Assembly (NCBI GenBank): GCA_016938135.1
Contig: JAFGVD010000040.1
Span: 1 to 48,441, forward strand
Source of the DNA: Coriobacteriia bacterium
GTDB taxonomy: Bacteria; Actinomycetota; Coriobacteriia; Anaerosomatales; Anaerosomataceae
Direction: 5' to 3'
Length of the DNA: 48,441 bases
The notes under the pieces are model-generated. The model did not search any database. It was not told the origin of the DNA and worked only from the letters and a program-made list of their open reading frames with translations. A program made the position numbers and the translations under genes. Positions 4,393 through 47,037 of this stretch are shown piece by piece. Position 1 is the first letter of the stretch. Each line of letters opens with the position of its first letter.

Positions 4393-6612
4393 CTAGTCCA
4401 TCATCACCGAATCAAGCGCCTGGAGACCTTCTTCGGATATTGCCCCTGTTCCGCCAAGAAGCCACAACTGGCTTATCGCAAGCTTCTTCTCGCGAAGGAA
4501 GGTCGCCGTGCCGGTAGGGCAGACATCACTGTGTGTAAGGATGAGAGGCTTACCATTGGCTCCAGCAAGCATGCCGCCCACCAATGCGTCAGCAAAATCA
4601 AGACCCGTCGCCAGGTACACATCCGTGTAGGTGAAGGTCTCTCCGTTGGTCACTAGGCCAGAGTAACGGGCCACCTCCGCTGACGTCGCATAGCGATCGG
4701 TTCCCTGGAGACGAACCACAGCGCCTCCCGTGAGTCCAGCCAGACGAGCGTCGGTGGTCGTGGAAATGACAGCCGAACCCCCGGCGATGATCGTGGTCTC
4801 TGGCCGGACGGTCTTCAGATAGGCATCTGTCTGCGAACTCGTCCCGGAGGCAGAGACCAGGAGTATCGGATAGTCTTTGGCATACGCGAGCGCGGACACC
4901 GAGGCCGCATCTGCCCAGGAGGTAGAGCTCACCACGAACACCTTCGACGATGGTGTGAGCTCGTGGGCTTTCTCGGCAGCAAGGCGCGCTGTCTCATATC
5001 GATTAGCACCGGCGATTCGAACGACGGTTGCCGAGGGAGCAGCAGTCTTCACGGCGCTCTCAACGCTCGACGAAATCGCCGACTTGCCACCCATGATATA
5101 AACGGTCTTGGGAGCGAGCGCCACGATCGTGCTCTTGACGATGTCCGGCAGCGAGCCGCTCTTCGTCAGCAGCAGCGCACCGTCCGCCGCACCGGCAAGT
5201 CCCGCGCCAGTCAGGGCGTCCGGGAAGTCCTCACCGCTGGCGAGGACGACGCTATCGGCAGTGCCAGGGAACGCGAGACGTGCTGCCTGGACAGCGGTGT
5301 CGTAGCGCGACTCGCCTTCTATCCGCTTGATGGGAAACCCGCTGAAGTAAAAGCGGGTGGACAGCATGCCTAGCTTGCTGCGAACGGTATCGCCGCTGAT
5401 CTTAACACTAACACCGTTGCTGAATGCCAGGGTCACGTACCTGACGTGACCGCTGTCGACACGCTCCACACTCACACCGGTGACCCACGTGGGGCTCGCC
5501 GGTACTCCAGAGACGCTTCTCAGCTTGTCTGCGAGCTGGAGGCCCGTGAGCGACTGTTCCTTCGATGAGGGCCATGGAGCGTAGCCAGGTGACGCGAGGT
5601 ACTCATACGAATCGGAGACGCCACGCAGGTAGGGATAGAGGGCTGCCTTTGCAGCGAAATCACCATCGCTGGGCACCCAGACATCCTCGACATTGGCAGT
5701 ATGGCCACCCGAAGTGGAGAAGAAGAACGTCTGGACGACCTTCGAGTCGTACTTCACTACCATGCCCTGGGTCGCAGCGACCGCGTTGTTGGTGGTCGTA
5801 GCCTCGCCCACCCACACGCCGTTGGAGTTGTAGGCCCCGTAGCCCTGATAGGCCTGACTGGAAGTGGTGCAGTACAGCGTGGCGTCCGTATCAACGTAAG
5901 CATACGAGCGCGCAACGATCGACTGCGCCTTGAGAGCCTCCGCCTTCCAGCTGGACGGCATCTCTCGTGGCACGACACCCTTGAGGTAGTCCTCGATGTC
6001 GAGTTCATTCAGGAGTTGGATCTTGCTGCTACTGGCACGCAATACCAGCTTGCCCCGGTACTTGCCGTTCGCAAAGCCGTAGATACCGGTCGCCTCTTTC
6101 ACCGAGAGGAGAGCAGGGCTCCCCGAGGTGGGAATGACTGTGACCGAGCCCGTCAGAACCAGCGGCGTGCTCAGATTCGCACCCGTCACGGTGACCACGG
6201 ACCCACTGGCAGTGAACACGTAGGTACCAGCCGCATAGCTCACGCCGTTGATGCTGAGCCCGGCACCGGTCTGTCCGTTTGAGATCGTCCAGAACTGCCG
6301 CGTATACGACGTAGGCGAGGACGCATCAGGGTCGAGGTTGACCTTCAAGTTCTTCGTCGCGGCGGTGCCGAGCGTCACGCCCGTGTAATAGTGCTTGATG
6401 ATCCAACTGTAGTCCTTACCGGCGATGGCTGAGCCCTGCGCGCCGTACTGACTCAGACCGATACCGTGACCGTACCCCGTCCCCGTGATAGAGAACGTAG
6501 GGATGGCAGCGGTCGAAACATCGCTCGCCGTGGCCGGCGCGACTGTCATCGGCAGGGAGATGAGCGCGGCAAGACACGCGCCAAGAATTTGGATGTACGG
6601 ACTGCGATTCAC
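4393..6612 (-). CDS. Secreted SpoIID/LytB-domain protein with three C-terminal CWB2 repeats
   Basis: A 739-residue exported protein. Residues 1-30 form a signal peptide ending near ATAS. The GYGHGIGLSQYGAQG motif at 46-60, usually near the C-terminus of SpoIID domains, stands at the N-terminus here. The main SpoIID domain covers about 185-345, with LNELDIEDYLKGVVPREMP carrying the likely catalytic Glu217 and FFFSTSGGHTANVEDVW at 296-312. SpoIID proteins are peptidoglycan lytic transglycosylases acting on denuded glycan strands. Three CWB2 repeats follow (about 427-525, 529-625, 630-736), each with an R-Y-[ED/AT]-T start and an I-[MA/LL]-GG core; such repeats anchor S-layer and wall proteins to an anionic wall polymer. 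GTG start with a GGAG site seven bases upstream. It ends 29 bases before the phosphorylase gene. Likely a wall-remodelling enzyme held at the surface; it does not imply sporulation. Confidence 0.9.
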   Translation of the reverse strand: MNRSPYIQILGACLAALISLPMTVAPATASDVSTAAIPTFSITGTGYGHGIGLSQYGAQGSAIAGKDYSWIIKHYYTGVTLGTAATKNLKVNLDPDASSPTSYTRQFWTISNGQTGAGLSINGVSYAAGTYVFTASGSVVTVTGANLSTPLVLTGSVTVIPTSGSPALLSVKEATGIYGFANGKYRGKLVLRASSSKIQLLNELDIEDYLKGVVPREMPSSWKAEALKAQSIVARSYAYVDTDATLYCTTSSQAYQGYGAYNSNGVWVGEATTTNNAVAATQGMVVKYDSKVVQTFFFSTSGGHTANVEDVWVPSDGDFAAKAALYPYLRGVSDSYEYLASPGYAPWPSSKEQSLTGLQLADKLRSVSGVPASPTWVTGVSVERVDSGHVRYVTLAFSNGVSVKISGDTVRSKLGMLSTRFYFSGFPIKRIEGESRYDTAVQAARLAFPGTADSVVLASGEDFPDALTGAGLAGAADGALLLTKSGSLPDIVKSTIVALAPKTVYIMGGKSAISSSVESAVKTAAPSATVVRIAGANRYETARLAAEKAHELTPSSKVFVVSSTSWADAASVSALAYAKDYPILLVSASGTSSQTDAYLKTVRPETTIIAGGSAVISTTTDARLAGLTGGAVVRLQGTDRYATSAEVARYSGLVTNGETFTYTDVYLATGLDFADALVGGMLAGANGKPLILTHSDVCPTGTATFLREKKLAISQLWLLGGTGAISEEGLQALDSVMMD

Positions 6613-41305: not shown

Positions 41306-41337
41306 TGCGGCGTTCTCCAGGGCTCTTCAAGACGAAA

Positions 41338-41361
41338 GGGAGGCGAGTCTCCTCGCCTCCC
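41338..41361 (-). terminator. Terminator after rpmE
   Basis: GGGAGGCGAG (41338-41347) and CTCGCCTCCC (41352-41361) form a perfect ten-base stem with a four-base loop. Read on the minus strand, the stem is followed by TTTCGTCTT, a short T-rich tail. It lies 27 bases after the rpmE stop and 32 before the thyX start. It is the best intrinsic terminator in the window, probably with some readthrough because no clear thyX promoter follows. Confidence 0.7.
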
Positions 41362-41388
41362 CATCATAGCAGCGTGACCGAGTGGCTG

Positions 41389-41930: not shown

Positions 41931-43259
41931 CTAGTACCCGTTGGTCTTCGTCTTTGAGATGGCAGCCAGGAACTCGCGGTTGCTCTTCGTCTGACGCAAC
42001 TTGTCCAAGAGGAGCTCGATGGCTGGACCGGACTCCAGCGAGTGGAGCACTCGACGCAGCTTCCAGATGAACGGGGCCTCAACGGGGTCCAGCAGCAGTT
42101 CCTCTTTGCGGGTGCCGGAAGCGATGACGTCGATGGCCGGGAAGATACGCCTGTCCGCCAGCTTGCGGTCGAGACGGAGCTCCATGTTACCCGTGCCCTT
42201 GAACTCCTCGAAGATGACTTCATCCATCTTCGAACCCGTGTCGACCAAGGCCGTGGCAAGGATCGTGAGCGAGCCGCCGCCTTCGATGTTGCGCGCAGCA
42301 CCGAAGAACTTCTTGGGCGGGTAGAGCGCGGTGGAGTCGACACCACCGGACAGGATGCGTCCTGAGGCGGGAGTCGCCAGGTTGTAGGCGCGAGCGAGCC
42401 TCGTGATGGAGTCGAGCAAGATCACGACGTCGAAGCCGGCCTCGGTAAGGCGCTTGGCGCGCTCCATGACCAGTTCGGAGACCGCGATGTGGTTCTCGGA
42501 AGGCATATCGAACGTGGACGAGACGACCTCGCCTTTGATCGAACGCTCCATGTCGGTGACTTCCTCAGGGCGCTCATCGACGAGCAGGCACATGAGGTAG
42601 ACGCCAGGGTTGTTCTCGGCGATGGAAGCGGCGATGTCTTTCAGGATGGTCGTCTTACCTGCCTTAGGCGGCGAGACGATCAGGCCGCGCTGGCCCTTGC
42701 CGATGGGCGCGACCAGGTCGATGATCCGCGAGGTGAGCGCCTGCGGGTTGGTGCGCTCCAGGGTGAACTTATCATCCGGGTACACCGGGGTGAGGTCGCG
42801 GAAGTTCTTGCGCTTCTTGGCCTCTTCAGGCAGCTGCCCGTTGATGGTGATGACCTTGAGCAGCGCGGAGTACTTCTCGCTGTCTTTAGGAGGACGCACC
42901 TGCCCTTTGATCATGTCACCGCGGCGCAGCTCGAAACGGCGCACCTGCGACATGGAGCAGTAGACATCGGAATCTCCCGGCAGGTAACCGGTGGTGCGGA
43001 TGAAACCGTAGCCCTCGGGCAGGATGTCGAGGATACCGATCACTTCGACGAAGCCCTCGGCCTTGACCTTGGCGTCATAGACGGCCGAGACGATCTCGTC
43101 CTTCTTCTTGAGCGCCTTGATGTCCAGCTCGAGCTCGCCGGCCATCTGCCGCAGCTCGGCTACGGTCTTCTGTTCGAGCTCGGCGCGGTTGACCGAAGGG
43201 CCCTGCTGTTCTTGCTGACCGCCACCGCGACGGCCTCTCTTGCGTGGACGTGAACTCAT
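41931..43259 (-). CDS. rho: Transcription termination factor Rho
   Basis: Hexameric RNA helicase ending transcription at unstructured C-rich RNA. 442 residues: a short basic N-terminal segment RPRKRGRRGGG at 4-14, Rho_N helices at about 24-62, the RNA-binding cold-shock fold with EGYGFIRTTGYLPGDSDVY at 82-100, Walker A SPPKAGKTT at 196-204, VDERPEEVTDMERS at 227-240, and DSITRLARAYN in the motor. There is no long Arg/Gly-rich insertion of the type seen in Micrococcus or Mycobacterium Rho, only the short RGRRGGGQQEQQ-like start. ATG overlaps the transaldolase stop (ATGA). First of the rho-rpmE pair conserved in many Actinomycetota and Firmicutes. Confidence 0.97.
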   Translation of the reverse strand: MSSRPRKRGRRGGGQQEQQGPSVNRAELEQKTVAELRQMAGELELDIKALKKKDEIVSAVYDAKVKAEGFVEVIGILDILPEGYGFIRTTGYLPGDSDVYCSMSQVRRFELRRGDMIKGQVRPPKDSEKYSALLKVITINGQLPEEAKKRKNFRDLTPVYPDDKFTLERTNPQALTSRIIDLVAPIGKGQRGLIVSPPKAGKTTILKDIAASIAENNPGVYLMCLLVDERPEEVTDMERSIKGEVVSSTFDMPSENHIAVSELVMERAKRLTEAGFDVVILLDSITRLARAYNLATPASGRILSGGVDSTALYPPKKFFGAARNIEGGGSLTILATALVDTGSKMDEVIFEEFKGTGNMELRLDRKLADRRIFPAIDVIASGTRKEELLLDPVEAPFIWKLRRVLHSLESGPAIELLLDKLRQTKSNREFLAAISKTKTNGY

Positions 43260-43918
43260 GAATTCTTCACTTTCTCCCAATCAGCCAGGAACGATTCGAG
43301 TCCCCGGTCGGTGAGTGGGTGCTTAACGAGCTTCTCCAGCACATTGAACGGCACTGTTGCGATATCAGCGCCCATGAGCGAAGAAGCGACGACGTGCTGG
43401 TTGTGGCGGACAGATGCCGCAATGACCTCAACAGGATGACCGAAGTCGTAGTTGTTGAGTGCGACGATCATGTTGCCCAGGTGCTCGAGTCCATCTTCAG
43501 AGATGTCATCGAAGCGCCCGATAAACGGGCTTACGTAGCGGGCGCCGGCACGAGCTGCCATGAGCGCCTGGGGTACCGTGAAGCATAGCGTCATGTTAAC
43601 GTCGATGCCTTTCTCGAACAGCGCGCGGGTAGCCGCGAGCCCTTCGATCATCACGGGTACCTTCACCACGACGTTAGGGGCGAGCGCAGCGAGTTCAACG
43701 CCTTCGCGTACAATCTCGTCACGAGTCAGGCCGACCGTCTCGGCCGAAACAGGACCATCCACGATGTCACAGATGCGCTTGATGTGAGTGTGGAAGTCGG
43801 CGAGATTGCCGCCCTCACGGGCATACAGCGTCGGGTTCGTGGTCACACCGGCAACCACACCCCACGATGCAGCTTCCTCGATCTGGGCGATGTTCGCCGT
43901 GTCCAGAAAGAACTTCAT
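43256..43918 (-). CDS. tal: Transaldolase, small (TalC/FSA-like) type
   Basis: Moves a dihydroxyacetone unit between sugar phosphates in the non-oxidative pentose phosphate pathway; close relatives can be fructose-6-phosphate aldolases. 220 residues, TIM barrel: MKFFLDTANIAQIEEA at 1-16, GVTTNPTLYAREGG near 24-37, NVVVKVPVMIEGL with the Schiff-base Lys86, and GARYVSPFIGRFDD. The FIGRFDD segment favours transaldolase. ATG at 43918 with GGGGAG nine bases upstream, four bases after the 2-phosphoglycerate kinase-like gene. It is coupled to rho by a four-base overlap. Confidence 0.95.
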   Translation of the reverse strand: MKFFLDTANIAQIEEAASWGVVAGVTTNPTLYAREGGNLADFHTHIKRICDIVDGPVSAETVGLTRDEIVREGVELAALAPNVVVKVPVMIEGLAATRALFEKGIDVNMTLCFTVPQALMAARAGARYVSPFIGRFDDISEDGLEHLGNMIVALNNYDFGHPVEVIAASVRHNQHVVASSLMGADIATVPFNVLEKLVKHPLTDRGLESFLADWEKVKNS

Positions 43919-43922
43919 GCGG

Positions 43923-44870
43923 TCACTCTCCCCTTTCTGCAGGTTGGACCCGGCTGTCAGCCGATTCCTCGTCTTCACGTATGACTGTGTTCACAACAAG
44001 TTCCAGGACCTCTGCCACCGTACGATCCAGTTGGTGGCTGTATACCACCGGTATGCCGCGCTCCACGGCAAGATCCTCTATGTAGTTTCCAAGAAGCCTG
44101 ATGTTCCCGAAGTTGGCACGGTACTTCTCAAACGGACGCATCCCGTCAGTCTGGATCTCCCGGATGTAGAAGTGGCTCCGGTGCGCTTCCTCGTCTTCGA
44201 CGCCGATGAGCAACTGCACCACCGATGCGTTCTTGAACTGAGAAGGGTCTATGTAGCCCGGCACGAGGTGTACACCCTCGATGACCATACTGACGCCTTC
44301 CACCGCAGCACGTTCGATCAGCGACTTGATCCCGGTGGAGACAACAGCGGTCTGCTCGCGGAATCCAACGATGACAGGGTTCGCGCCGTGGGGTACGGGG
44401 ACCCGGAGTCCACGCCATGCGTTGAAGGAGCTTTCGTATATCGCAGGCATGAGGTCCCTTGCAAAGATACCACGCATTACCTCTCGGATGGAATCTGTAG
44501 ACACAATACGTGTGATTCCCAGGCGGTGAGCAACCTCTGTGGCGATCGTCGATTTGCCTACGCCGGTGGTTCCACCGACCAGGACGACGAGCGCCCTGTC
44601 GAATCTGCCTATCTCCTGAAGCTTCTCGAATCGACGCGCATAGTCAACGCCCGCTTGCTCCGAGAGAACCCGCACGGTCCGCTGCTGCAGGTCCTCCAGC
44701 CCAATCTCCCGGAGGCCTTCGGCGCGCATCTCGTCTTGAAGGCTCTGCGCCGCAAGATACGCGCGCGCAGGTGACAGACCCGCTGCCGTGAACGCCTGCG
44801 CGGTGAGGCCCTTTGAGTACGGGAGCCCATGGCGCTCGTCTTTGATGATGATCGGCTCGATGCGGGACAT
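43923..44870 (-). CDS. 2-phosphoglycerate kinase homologue with N-terminal ATP-cone
   Basis: In Methanothermus the homologous enzyme phosphorylates 2-phosphoglycerate to 2,3-diphosphoglycerate with ATP, the first step to cyclic 2,3-diphosphoglycerate. 315 residues: an ATP-cone-like domain at about 7-90 (IIIKDERHGLPYSKGLTAQA... VLSEQAGVDYARRF), then a P-loop kinase with LVGGTTGVGKST ending at about 108, IVSTDSIREVMRGI near 122-135, and MVIEGVHLVPGYID near 195-208. Plant LPA1-type proteins share this kinase domain, so a different small-molecule substrate is possible. The ATG at 44870 overlaps the cyclase stop (TGATG), with AGGAGG about eight bases upstream. Adjacency to the cyclase strongly supports the diphosphoglycerate role. 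Confidence 0.85.
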   Translation of the reverse strand: MSRIEPIIIKDERHGLPYSKGLTAQAFTAAGLSPARAYLAAQSLQDEMRAEGLREIGLEDLQQRTVRVLSEQAGVDYARRFEKLQEIGRFDRALVVLVGGTTGVGKSTIATEVAHRLGITRIVSTDSIREVMRGIFARDLMPAIYESSFNAWRGLRVPVPHGANPVIVGFREQTAVVSTGIKSLIERAAVEGVSMVIEGVHLVPGYIDPSQFKNASVVQLLIGVEDEEAHRSHFYIREIQTDGMRPFEKYRANFGNIRLLGNYIEDLAVERGIPVVYSHQLDRTVAEVLELVVNTVIREDEESADSRVQPAERGE

Positions 44871-46216
44871 CACTTCCCCCTCCTGGCCCGCTCGCGCAAC
44901 AGAGCGGTGTCGGTCACATAGTCGATCACGTCATCGATGCTGGTCCCACCGGTGGATACCGGAGCGTTGTCGCACAAGACCGTGGGGACGCCGGCCTCGG
45001 CGCCGGCGGCGGCAACAACGTCTATCGCTGCAGCCTTGAGCTCGGTCAACAGCACATCGAACCGACCCTGATACGCACGCATGTCTTCCCTGAGCAGGGT
45101 GCGATTGGAGAGATTCGGACTCGAAGCCACCACGCTGCAGCCGTACTCGATCTCAAGGTATTCGACCAACGTGGGCAAGACGCCTTCCGGAGCGGTAGTG
45201 GCGAAAAACACCCGCTTGCCACTGACGCTTCCGATCGGTCGGGGGCGGAGCGTGGTAACGGCGATCGGCACATCCTCGCGCTGCAGGCGTATAGCCGCCA
45301 CAAGCTCCTCGATGTCTGCCGGGGACGCAACGGGCTCCTCGGCATTGGCGATGATCACGGCGTCGGCCCGACCAAGCCGGTAGGGGCCGAAGAAGTCACG
45401 GACGTAGGTCACTCCGCGCCCTGCGCCCACGATGAGAATGGACGCGTCGGCTGCAACCGGCGGTATAGCGGCTCCTGAGCCCTCACAGACAATTAGCTCC
45501 TTGCCGAGCGAATCCGCAAGAGCAGCGCCCTGCGGGACGTTGCCAAAGAAGGTCTCCCCCGCCATGCCGCCGCCGCAACGGCGACATCCCACCGTGGTCA
45601 CCCTGCTCATCACGGCGTCTTCATAGTTATCCGACGACGCATGCTTGCCTTCTGCGGCCAGCACGAGCAGGTCTTCAGTCGTCAGTGACACCTCATCGCC
45701 CCTGATGAGTTCAGGCATGGCAGGACCGCCACGGCCCATGGCGAGGACCACGATGTCACGGCCTGCGGCCTTCAGCCTTCTGGCCACGTATGCCGAGACA
45801 GCCGTCTTGCCCACGCGCTTGCCTGTCCCGATGATCTCAAGCGCGGGGGTCCGGGTGATGAGCGCGGGCTTGGGCGGGTCGAAGCGGAAGTCCGCACCCC
45901 GGTAGGCGACCCCATAGCCGAGCGCGATACTGGCCAGCCTGAAGCGATCGGTCGCGCTCAAGACGGGTTCATCGGAAAGATCGACGACCTCATCGGGCCG
46001 ATACTGCAAGATGACGTCGCGCAACGCCTGGTGCGCGTCAGCGGCGAAGACGACGGGAACGCCGTACACGTCGGTTGCACCGTCCAAGTCGACCTTCTCG
46101 GTGCCGCCCATGAACGCGACGGCCAAGACCTCATGGTCTTCACGCAGGGAATCAAGCGCGAACCGTACCACCGGCGGGTAGTGCTCCCCGTCGATGAGTG
46201 CAACGACCCTGCTCAT
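44870..46216 (-). CDS. cpgS: Cyclic 2,3-diphosphoglycerate synthetase homologue
   Basis: In hyperthermophilic methanogens this enzyme closes 2,3-diphosphoglycerate into the cyclic pyrophosphate cDPG using ATP. 448 residues, close to the archaeal length of about 460. Starts MSRVVALIDGEHYPPVVRF, has LEIIGTGKRVGKTAVSAYVA with a P-loop at 130-138, VVLAMGRGGPAMPELI near 157-171, VGCRRCGGGMAGETFFGN near 209-226 with a Cys-x2-Cys pair, and ELIVCEGSGAAIPPV near 240-253. The second half resembles dethiobiotin-synthetase-like P-loop proteins. ATG at 46216 overlaps the phosphoesterase stop (TGATG), with GGAG ten bases upstream; an ATG at 46225 is too near that site. Reaction inferred from homology and from its neighbour. 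Confidence 0.87.
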   Translation of the reverse strand: MSRVVALIDGEHYPPVVRFALDSLREDHEVLAVAFMGGTEKVDLDGATDVYGVPVVFAADAHQALRDVILQYRPDEVVDLSDEPVLSATDRFRLASIALGYGVAYRGADFRFDPPKPALITRTPALEIIGTGKRVGKTAVSAYVARRLKAAGRDIVVLAMGRGGPAMPELIRGDEVSLTTEDLLVLAAEGKHASSDNYEDAVMSRVTTVGCRRCGGGMAGETFFGNVPQGAALADSLGKELIVCEGSGAAIPPVAADASILIVGAGRGVTYVRDFFGPYRLGRADAVIIANAEEPVASPADIEELVAAIRLQREDVPIAVTTLRPRPIGSVSGKRVFFATTAPEGVLPTLVEYLEIEYGCSVVASSPNLSNRTLLREDMRAYQGRFDVLLTELKAAAIDVVAAAGAEAGVPTVLCDNAPVSTGGTSIDDVIDYVTDTALLRERARRGK

Positions 46217-47037
46217 CACTCGCATGCTCCGTTCGAGTCGGGCCCGGGGGCCGGTGAATCCGCGGGATCCGGCTGCCATACGCACTCTCGTTTGATGACG
46301 CGGCTGAAGTCCGCAACCGTCTCCGGTTCATCGAAGGGGTGCTTGAGTATCACCTTCACCCTGTCAGAGTGGAGCTCCACCACGTTGTAGCTGGCACGCG
46401 TCTTGCCGCGCAGGCGATACGAGCACGCGGTTCCCGCATTCACGATGACCGTGGACTCAAGCCGCCAGACGTTGGGCACGTGCTTGTGCCCGCACAACAC
46501 GAGGTCGCATCCGCTTGCCGAGAGAACCCGCAACGCATCGCCGGCGTCATAGACGATGTTCCGTTCACGACCGGTACCGGGAACCGGGATCAGATGGTGG
46601 TGCAACGCCACGACCTTGAACTCCTCGGGCTCGCTGAAGCGCTCCTCGATCCACCGGTAGCGCTCGCGACCGATCCTGCCGCTGTCCAGGTCCGGCTCGG
46701 ATGAATCGAGGCCGAGGACGCGGACGCCATCGAAGCGCAGTTCGCTCGACCGGGCGCCGAAGAGCTCCTCGAAGTGCATGTCGCCGACGTTTCGCGCGTC
46801 GTGATTCCCGGGGAGCACCATGACCCGCTCGACCTCCATGCGCGAGATCAGCCGCTGTGCGGCAAGATACTCCTGACGGAAGCCCATGTCGGTGAGATCG
46901 CCGGTCACGATCAGGGCGTCAGGCTGGAGCTCGTTGATCTCATCGACCACACGGGTCGCCACACTCGGGATGTGGTACTGAGACCCGCAATGCAGGTCCG
47001 AGATGTGGGCGATGACGATGGGCTTCTCGCTGTTCAT
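46216..47037 (-). CDS. Calcineurin-like metallophosphoesterase
   Basis: A 273-residue two-metal phosphoesterase of the CpdA-like group, cytosolic (no signal peptide). All five metal-binding blocks are present: ISDLHCGS with Asp14 and His16, VTGDLTD at 44-50, LPGNHD at 75-80, ALHHHL near 145-149, and CGHKH at 182-186. The C-terminus is a poorly conserved tail (PDPADSPAPGPDS). Substrates in this family range from cyclic nucleotides to nucleotides and DNA. It is the first gene of the operon with the cyclic diphosphoglycerate enzymes, translationally coupled to the cyclase, so hydrolysis of the cyclic product or an intermediate is a fair hypothesis. ATG with GGAGG four bases upstream. Confidence 0.9.
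   Translation of the reverse strand: MNSEKPIVIAHISDLHCGSQYHIPSVATRVVDEINELQPDALIVTGDLTDMGFRQEYLAAQRLISRMEVERVMVLPGNHDARNVGDMHFEELFGARSSELRFDGVRVLGLDSSEPDLDSGRIGRERYRWIEERFSEPEEFKVVALHHHLIPVPGTGRERNIVYDAGDALRVLSASGCDLVLCGHKHVPNVWRLESTVIVNAGTACSYRLRGKTRASYNVVELHSDRVKVILKHPFDEPETVADFSRVIKRECVWQPDPADSPAPGPDSNGACE

Follow-up and report, generated by a model that had tools for sequence, protein, structure and literature searches.

Cyclic 2,3-diphosphoglycerate (cDPG) was described in a 2023 paper as exclusive to hyperthermophilic methanogens (PMC10690619), and its synthetase (cDPGS) has been counted as a thermophily trait (PMC7554672). The closest described system is that of Methanothermus fervidus, in which cDPG is made by 2-phosphoglycerate kinase (2PGK) and cDPGS (PDB 8ORK/8ORU), and no known structure was reported to resemble the N-terminal domain of the synthetase. 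In Methanothermobacter, cDPG lies on a side branch of gluconeogenesis, turns over fast and has been tied to storage, and its hydrolase is membrane-bound. M. smithii accumulates the compound too (PMC1224877), so that protection from heat is not strictly its role. Our literature search found neither a sequence for an archaeal cDPG hydrolase nor a report of cDPG or cDPGS from a bacterium.

Here we describe three genes in the window (the whole analysed stretch of 48,441 nucleotides, contig JAFGVD010000040.1 of a Coriobacteriia bacterium), which probably constitute a bacterial cDPG module leading from 2-phosphoglycerate (2-PG) through 2,3-diphosphoglycerate (2,3-DPG) to cDPG and tied to gluconeogenesis. 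Both enzymes of M. fervidus have counterparts in it, with full-length homology, the P-loops and the residues of the 2,3-DPG/ATP site in common. Unlike in M. fervidus, the host group is bacterial and has yielded both mesophiles and thermophiles in culture, the pair is coupled with a metallophosphoesterase (MPE), and cDPG is a predicted product. The likeness to Methanothermobacter thermautotrophicus (PMC1224877) lies in the idea of a side branch of gluconeogenesis on which cDPG is both made and hydrolysed, but the hydrolase there is membrane-bound, whereas the MPE of the window has a soluble GpdQ-type fold and its action on cDPG is putative.

Table 1. Features of the locus, with positions in the window.
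Feature	Coordinates	Strand	Remarks
MPE (calcineurin-like metallophosphoesterase, GpdQ/Rv0805 type)	46216..47037	-	273 aa; first gene of the trio
TGATG stop/start overlap, MPE to cDPGS	46214..46218	-	read in the sequence
cDPGS homologue (cyclic 2,3-diphosphoglycerate synthetase)	44870..46216	-	448 aa from ATG
TGATG stop/start overlap, cDPGS to 2PGK	44868..44872	-	read in the sequence
2PGK homologue (2-phosphoglycerate kinase)	43923..44870	-	315 aa from ATG
2PGK homologue, architecture			N-terminal ATP-cone-like domain and P-loop kinase
Fructose-6-phosphate aldolase/transaldolase	43256..43918	-	220 aa; TIGR00875 258 bits, above cut-off
Transcription termination factor Rho	41931..43259	-	Pfam; ATGA overlap with transaldolase
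Terminator-like hairpin, 11 pairs, after rpmE-like gene	41337..41362	-	consensus scan only

The initial annotation had read three genes joined by TGATG overlaps, with the P-loop GTGKRVGKT in cDPGS and GGTTGVGKST in 2PGK, and we found the genes on the minus strand and both junctions (46218-46214 and 44872-44868) and both P-loops as described (Table 1). Its three genes stand, but the end of the operon does not, as the gene string runs on into transaldolase and rho. The transaldolase starts 4 nt past the 2PGK stop and rho overlaps it in turn, so that the transcript is likely longer than the trio, and the hairpin after the rpmE-like gene may be its end. A GGAGGAG motif lies 3 nt ahead of the MPE ATG, and the mechanically longest ORF of cDPGS begins upstream of its ATG, at 46285. 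The third-position G+C of 0.69-0.82 across the trio genes fits coding sequence, and the G+C of the trio is level with that of its flanks. No RNA families or tRNAs were found within the window, and the promoter scan of the locus was uninformative.

For cDPGS, we ran phmmer against the solved structures. The best matches were 8ork and 8oru (both E about 3e-128), followed by 9sxb (E=2e-104), and all full-length matches were cDPGS entries. In the match to 8ork (E=3.2e-128), residues 25-461 of the 471-residue query are aligned to residues 5-452, and the full-length homology takes in the N-terminal domain. The identity is 48% over the full length to the crystallised M. fervidus enzyme and 42-48% to the solved enzymes. 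We checked the active-site residues that the crystal paper names (PMC10690619), and it turned out that the window, all 76 homologues from the order and 9sxb agree at E45, K46, K145, R146, K149, T150, D208, T353, E404 and K406. E305 is kept in 75 of the 76 aligned sequences, while P335 maps to another letter, the nearest invariant proline being at 337 in our numbering; the alignment has 90 invariant positions overall. The residues in contact with 2,3-DPG are all invariant, both K145 and R146 and the two that the other subunit contributes, E45 and K46. This conservation supports, and does not prove, that the product is the same as that of the archaeal enzyme. The Pfam and NCBIfam models gave no match to the cDPGS of the window, and annotation by these libraries alone would thus miss cDPGS in spite of its solved structures; bacterial cDPGS may well carry automatic names in the sequence databases.

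For 2PGK, the best-scoring NCBIfam families were PRK12337 (308 bits, E=7e-92) and PRK04220 (294 bits, E=1e-87), both under their equivalog cut-offs (603 and 343 bits, respectively), and we therefore name the protein a 2PGK homologue. PRK04220 is like it in length and architecture, whereas the first about 180 positions of PRK12337 are missing from the window protein. Related models scored lower, such as PRK12338 (160 bits) and mevalonate-3-phosphate 5-kinase (84 bits). The Pfam ATP-cone model reached 17.7 bits against a cut-off of 25.8; the N-terminal domain is conserved all the same, and the protein has conserved motifs. Structure search returned only generic adenylate/shikimate kinase-like matches. 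The two families proposed by the initial annotation are hence upheld, with E-values far from chance: at full length cDPGS matches cDPGS structures only and its active-site residues are kept, and the two 2-phosphoglycerate kinase models score best for the kinase, well above the mevalonate-3-phosphate 5-kinase model.

To describe the distribution, we searched 396 genomes of the phylum Actinomycetota, taking E <= 1e-20 as a strong match. It turned out that cDPGS was present in 200 of them: 195 contained both cDPGS and 2PGK, 5 only cDPGS, 6 only 2PGK and 190 neither, so that the two were apart in 11 genomes (Fisher p 4e-98, descriptive only, as the test ignores relatedness). In the order Anaerosomatales, 65 of 69 genomes carry cDPGS, which was found in no sampled Coriobacteriia genome from other orders. 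Throughout the order, cDPGS is followed by 2PGK wherever the contig runs on, and at least 27 families beyond the order keep this arrangement. In one family, probably Rubrobacteraceae, cDPGS stands with MPE and a class II fructose bisphosphatase (FBPase, by sequence resemblance) comes next, with 2PGK elsewhere in the same genome; in locus L119 the FBPase follows 2PGK. Such class II fructose bisphosphatase-like (GlpX) genes beside cDPGS or 2PGK (L114, 4846-5850; L119, 3909-4937) support a gluconeogenic context. The gene between thrB and MPE varies among relatives (SppA-like protease or O-antigen-ligase-like, by eye) and was rejected as a fourth member. Transfer of the module on plasmids was also rejected, since cDPGS had no match among 72,556 plasmids.

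The named relatives are Coriobacteriia/Anaerosomatales and Actinobacteria MAGs, and the names of the isolates hint at sediment, groundwater and the like as sources. For instance, the trio is intact in a locus with the isolate name palsa_660 (L067), which suggests cold peat. Two cultured Anaerosomatales are a mesophile growing at 14-42 C and a thermophile growing at 25-77 C (PMC9686372). Two records deserve a remark for their titles. JADIIM010000008.1 (L063), titled Aeromicrobium sp., holds the whole gene string of the Anaerosomatales, with identities of 73-88%, and is probably a mislabelled MAG. DYIV01000001.1 (L072), titled Slackia heliotrinireducens and from a mine sample, differs from the Coriobacteriia sampled from other orders in having a trio, which is divergent (52-57%); either the title is doubtful or the record represents an early branch.

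Four genomes of the order are without cDPGS; 2PGK is missing in all four (one has only a chance-level P-loop match) and MPE in three. In G059, G087 and G129, each belonging to a different family, the trio is missing while transaldolase and rho are retained, and neither 2PGK nor an MPE of the window type was found elsewhere in these genomes. Directly before the transaldolase stand hom, thrB and an SppA-like gene in G087, hom and an SppA-like gene in G059, and an SppA-like gene in G129 (SppA by eye in each case). G051 was not counted as a loss, because rho is missing there too and the absence is probably an assembly gap. That exactly three genes are missing while the flanks stay indicates that the module is the trio and not its neighbours. 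Co-occurrence, conserved order and block loss thus support the single module, phosphoesterase included, that the initial annotation had put forward; the spread over the phylum, the non-thermophilic settings and the neighbours transaldolase, rho and sometimes class II FBPase were not part of it.

The MPE matched the Pfam family Metallophos (PF00149, E=1.6e-19) and has all metal-binding motifs of the DxH, GD, GNHD, H, GHxH pattern (DLH, GDLTD, GNHD, H and GHKH). Its AF2 model has a mean pLDDT of 86.6, and the nearest solved structures are GpdQ and Rv0805, which share its fold and metal-binding motifs. This resemblance raises another reading of the third gene, in which MPE has nothing to do with cDPG and takes cyclic nucleotides or glycerophosphodiesters as substrates, as Rv0805 or GpdQ do, a reading to which we give slightly less than an even chance and which is compatible with the other two genes making cDPG. 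In keeping with it, no MPE adjoins cDPGS in L034, L039, L073, L096 and L109, although one does in most loci. Most of the tested genomes of this kind carry a more distant MPE elsewhere (E about 1e-81 to 1e-87), and none of the window type was found in G299 (95% complete) or in the incomplete G147. Against it, the identity to GpdQ and Rv0805 is only about 18-23%, compared with 57-83% among the MPEs of the order, and a PGTGRERN segment past the HHH motif, invariant in the order, and the operon with cDPGS set MPE apart from both. Besides, MPE is translationally coupled to cDPGS and has gone together with cDPGS and 2PGK at the three empty sites.

Taking the trio as a cDPG module, the pathway would run as follows. 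Judging from its family, 2PGK would phosphorylate the 3-hydroxyl of 2-phosphoglycerate with ATP to 2,3-DPG, which cDPGS would turn into cDPG with a further ATP. More tentatively, the co-translated MPE might reopen the ring or dephosphorylate DPG and so feed phosphoglycerate back into gluconeogenesis. The likely role would be a store of carbon, phosphate and anhydride energy that is drawn down and refilled off the 2-PG/3-PG node, and cDPG could also act as a trianion for K+. The gluconeogenic link is drawn because fructose-6-phosphate aldolase/transaldolase adjoins the trio and class II fructose bisphosphatase does so in other lineages, and this bacterial setting fits a storage or overflow role. 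Some points speak against the module: 2PGK stays under the equivalog cut-offs, MPE does not always adjoin, and a study of solutes in Rubrobacter, probably of the cDPGS-bearing family named above, using HPAEC for chosen solutes, lists trehalose, mannosylglycerate and DIP with cDPG unmentioned (PMC3505630).

Other readings concern the enzyme pair itself. The pair might make a different cyclic pyrophosphate, if the cDPGS of Actinomycetota had shifted to another bisphosphorylated acid supplied by the kinase. An identity of 42-48% to the solved enzymes leaves room for such a change, and the 2PGK superfamily includes kinases of other substrates, e.g. mevalonate-3-phosphate 5-kinase. We consider it unlikely, as the four 2,3-DPG contacts are invariant and the partner is nearest to 2PGK, with 308 bits against the 84 bits of the mevalonate-3-phosphate kinase model.

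Still less probable, in our view, is that 2,3-DPG is the main product, as a cofactor or regulator, and that cDPGS merely buffers it. 2PGK alone would yield 2,3-DPG, and 2PGK models also match genomes such as Thermus, Deinobacterium and Sulfolobus, but cDPGS and 2PGK are almost never apart in Actinomycetota. Moreover, no cofactor-dependent phosphoglycerate mutase (dPGM) was found in the window's genome, so that 2,3-DPG is unneeded as a mutase cofactor and this role was rejected for that genome. An archaeal-type iPGM is present, in agreement with the report that Anaerosomatales isolates use iPGAM (PMC9686372). A second gene, with a weak match to an iPGM-family model, was seen at C38:42380-43567 in G000, besides the apgM-type gene at C42. 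Finally, the characterised enzymes are archaeal (PMC10690619, PMC1224877), which could mean that a methanogen recently donated the module and that it has no settled role, but the presence of cDPGS in half of the phylum sample and nearly all of the order (200 of 396 and 65 of 69), neighbours conserved across at least 27 other families and a G+C level with the flanks make this most improbable.

With the cDPG module preferred over these readings, cDPG may be common among bacteria, although it has been regarded as peculiar to heat-loving methanogens. A pathway conserved in about half of the sampled actinobacterial genomes, one of them probably from palsa peat to judge by its record name, would alter the view of cDPG as confined to methanogens and to thermophily. 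The module would also supply mesophilic enzymes for making an industrially sought extremolyte, and MPE would be a gene candidate for cDPG breakdown. A bolder version, which we regard as speculative and rather doubtful, is that cDPG is old and common in deep-branching Actinomycetota, including those of cool habitats, as a phosphate/energy and carbon store at the 2-PG node, and that the coupled MPE is the previously unidentified cDPG hydrolase. Apart from the trio, the window encodes a 739-aa SpoIID/LytB-domain protein (4393-6612, minus strand); isolates of the lineage are reported not to form spores.
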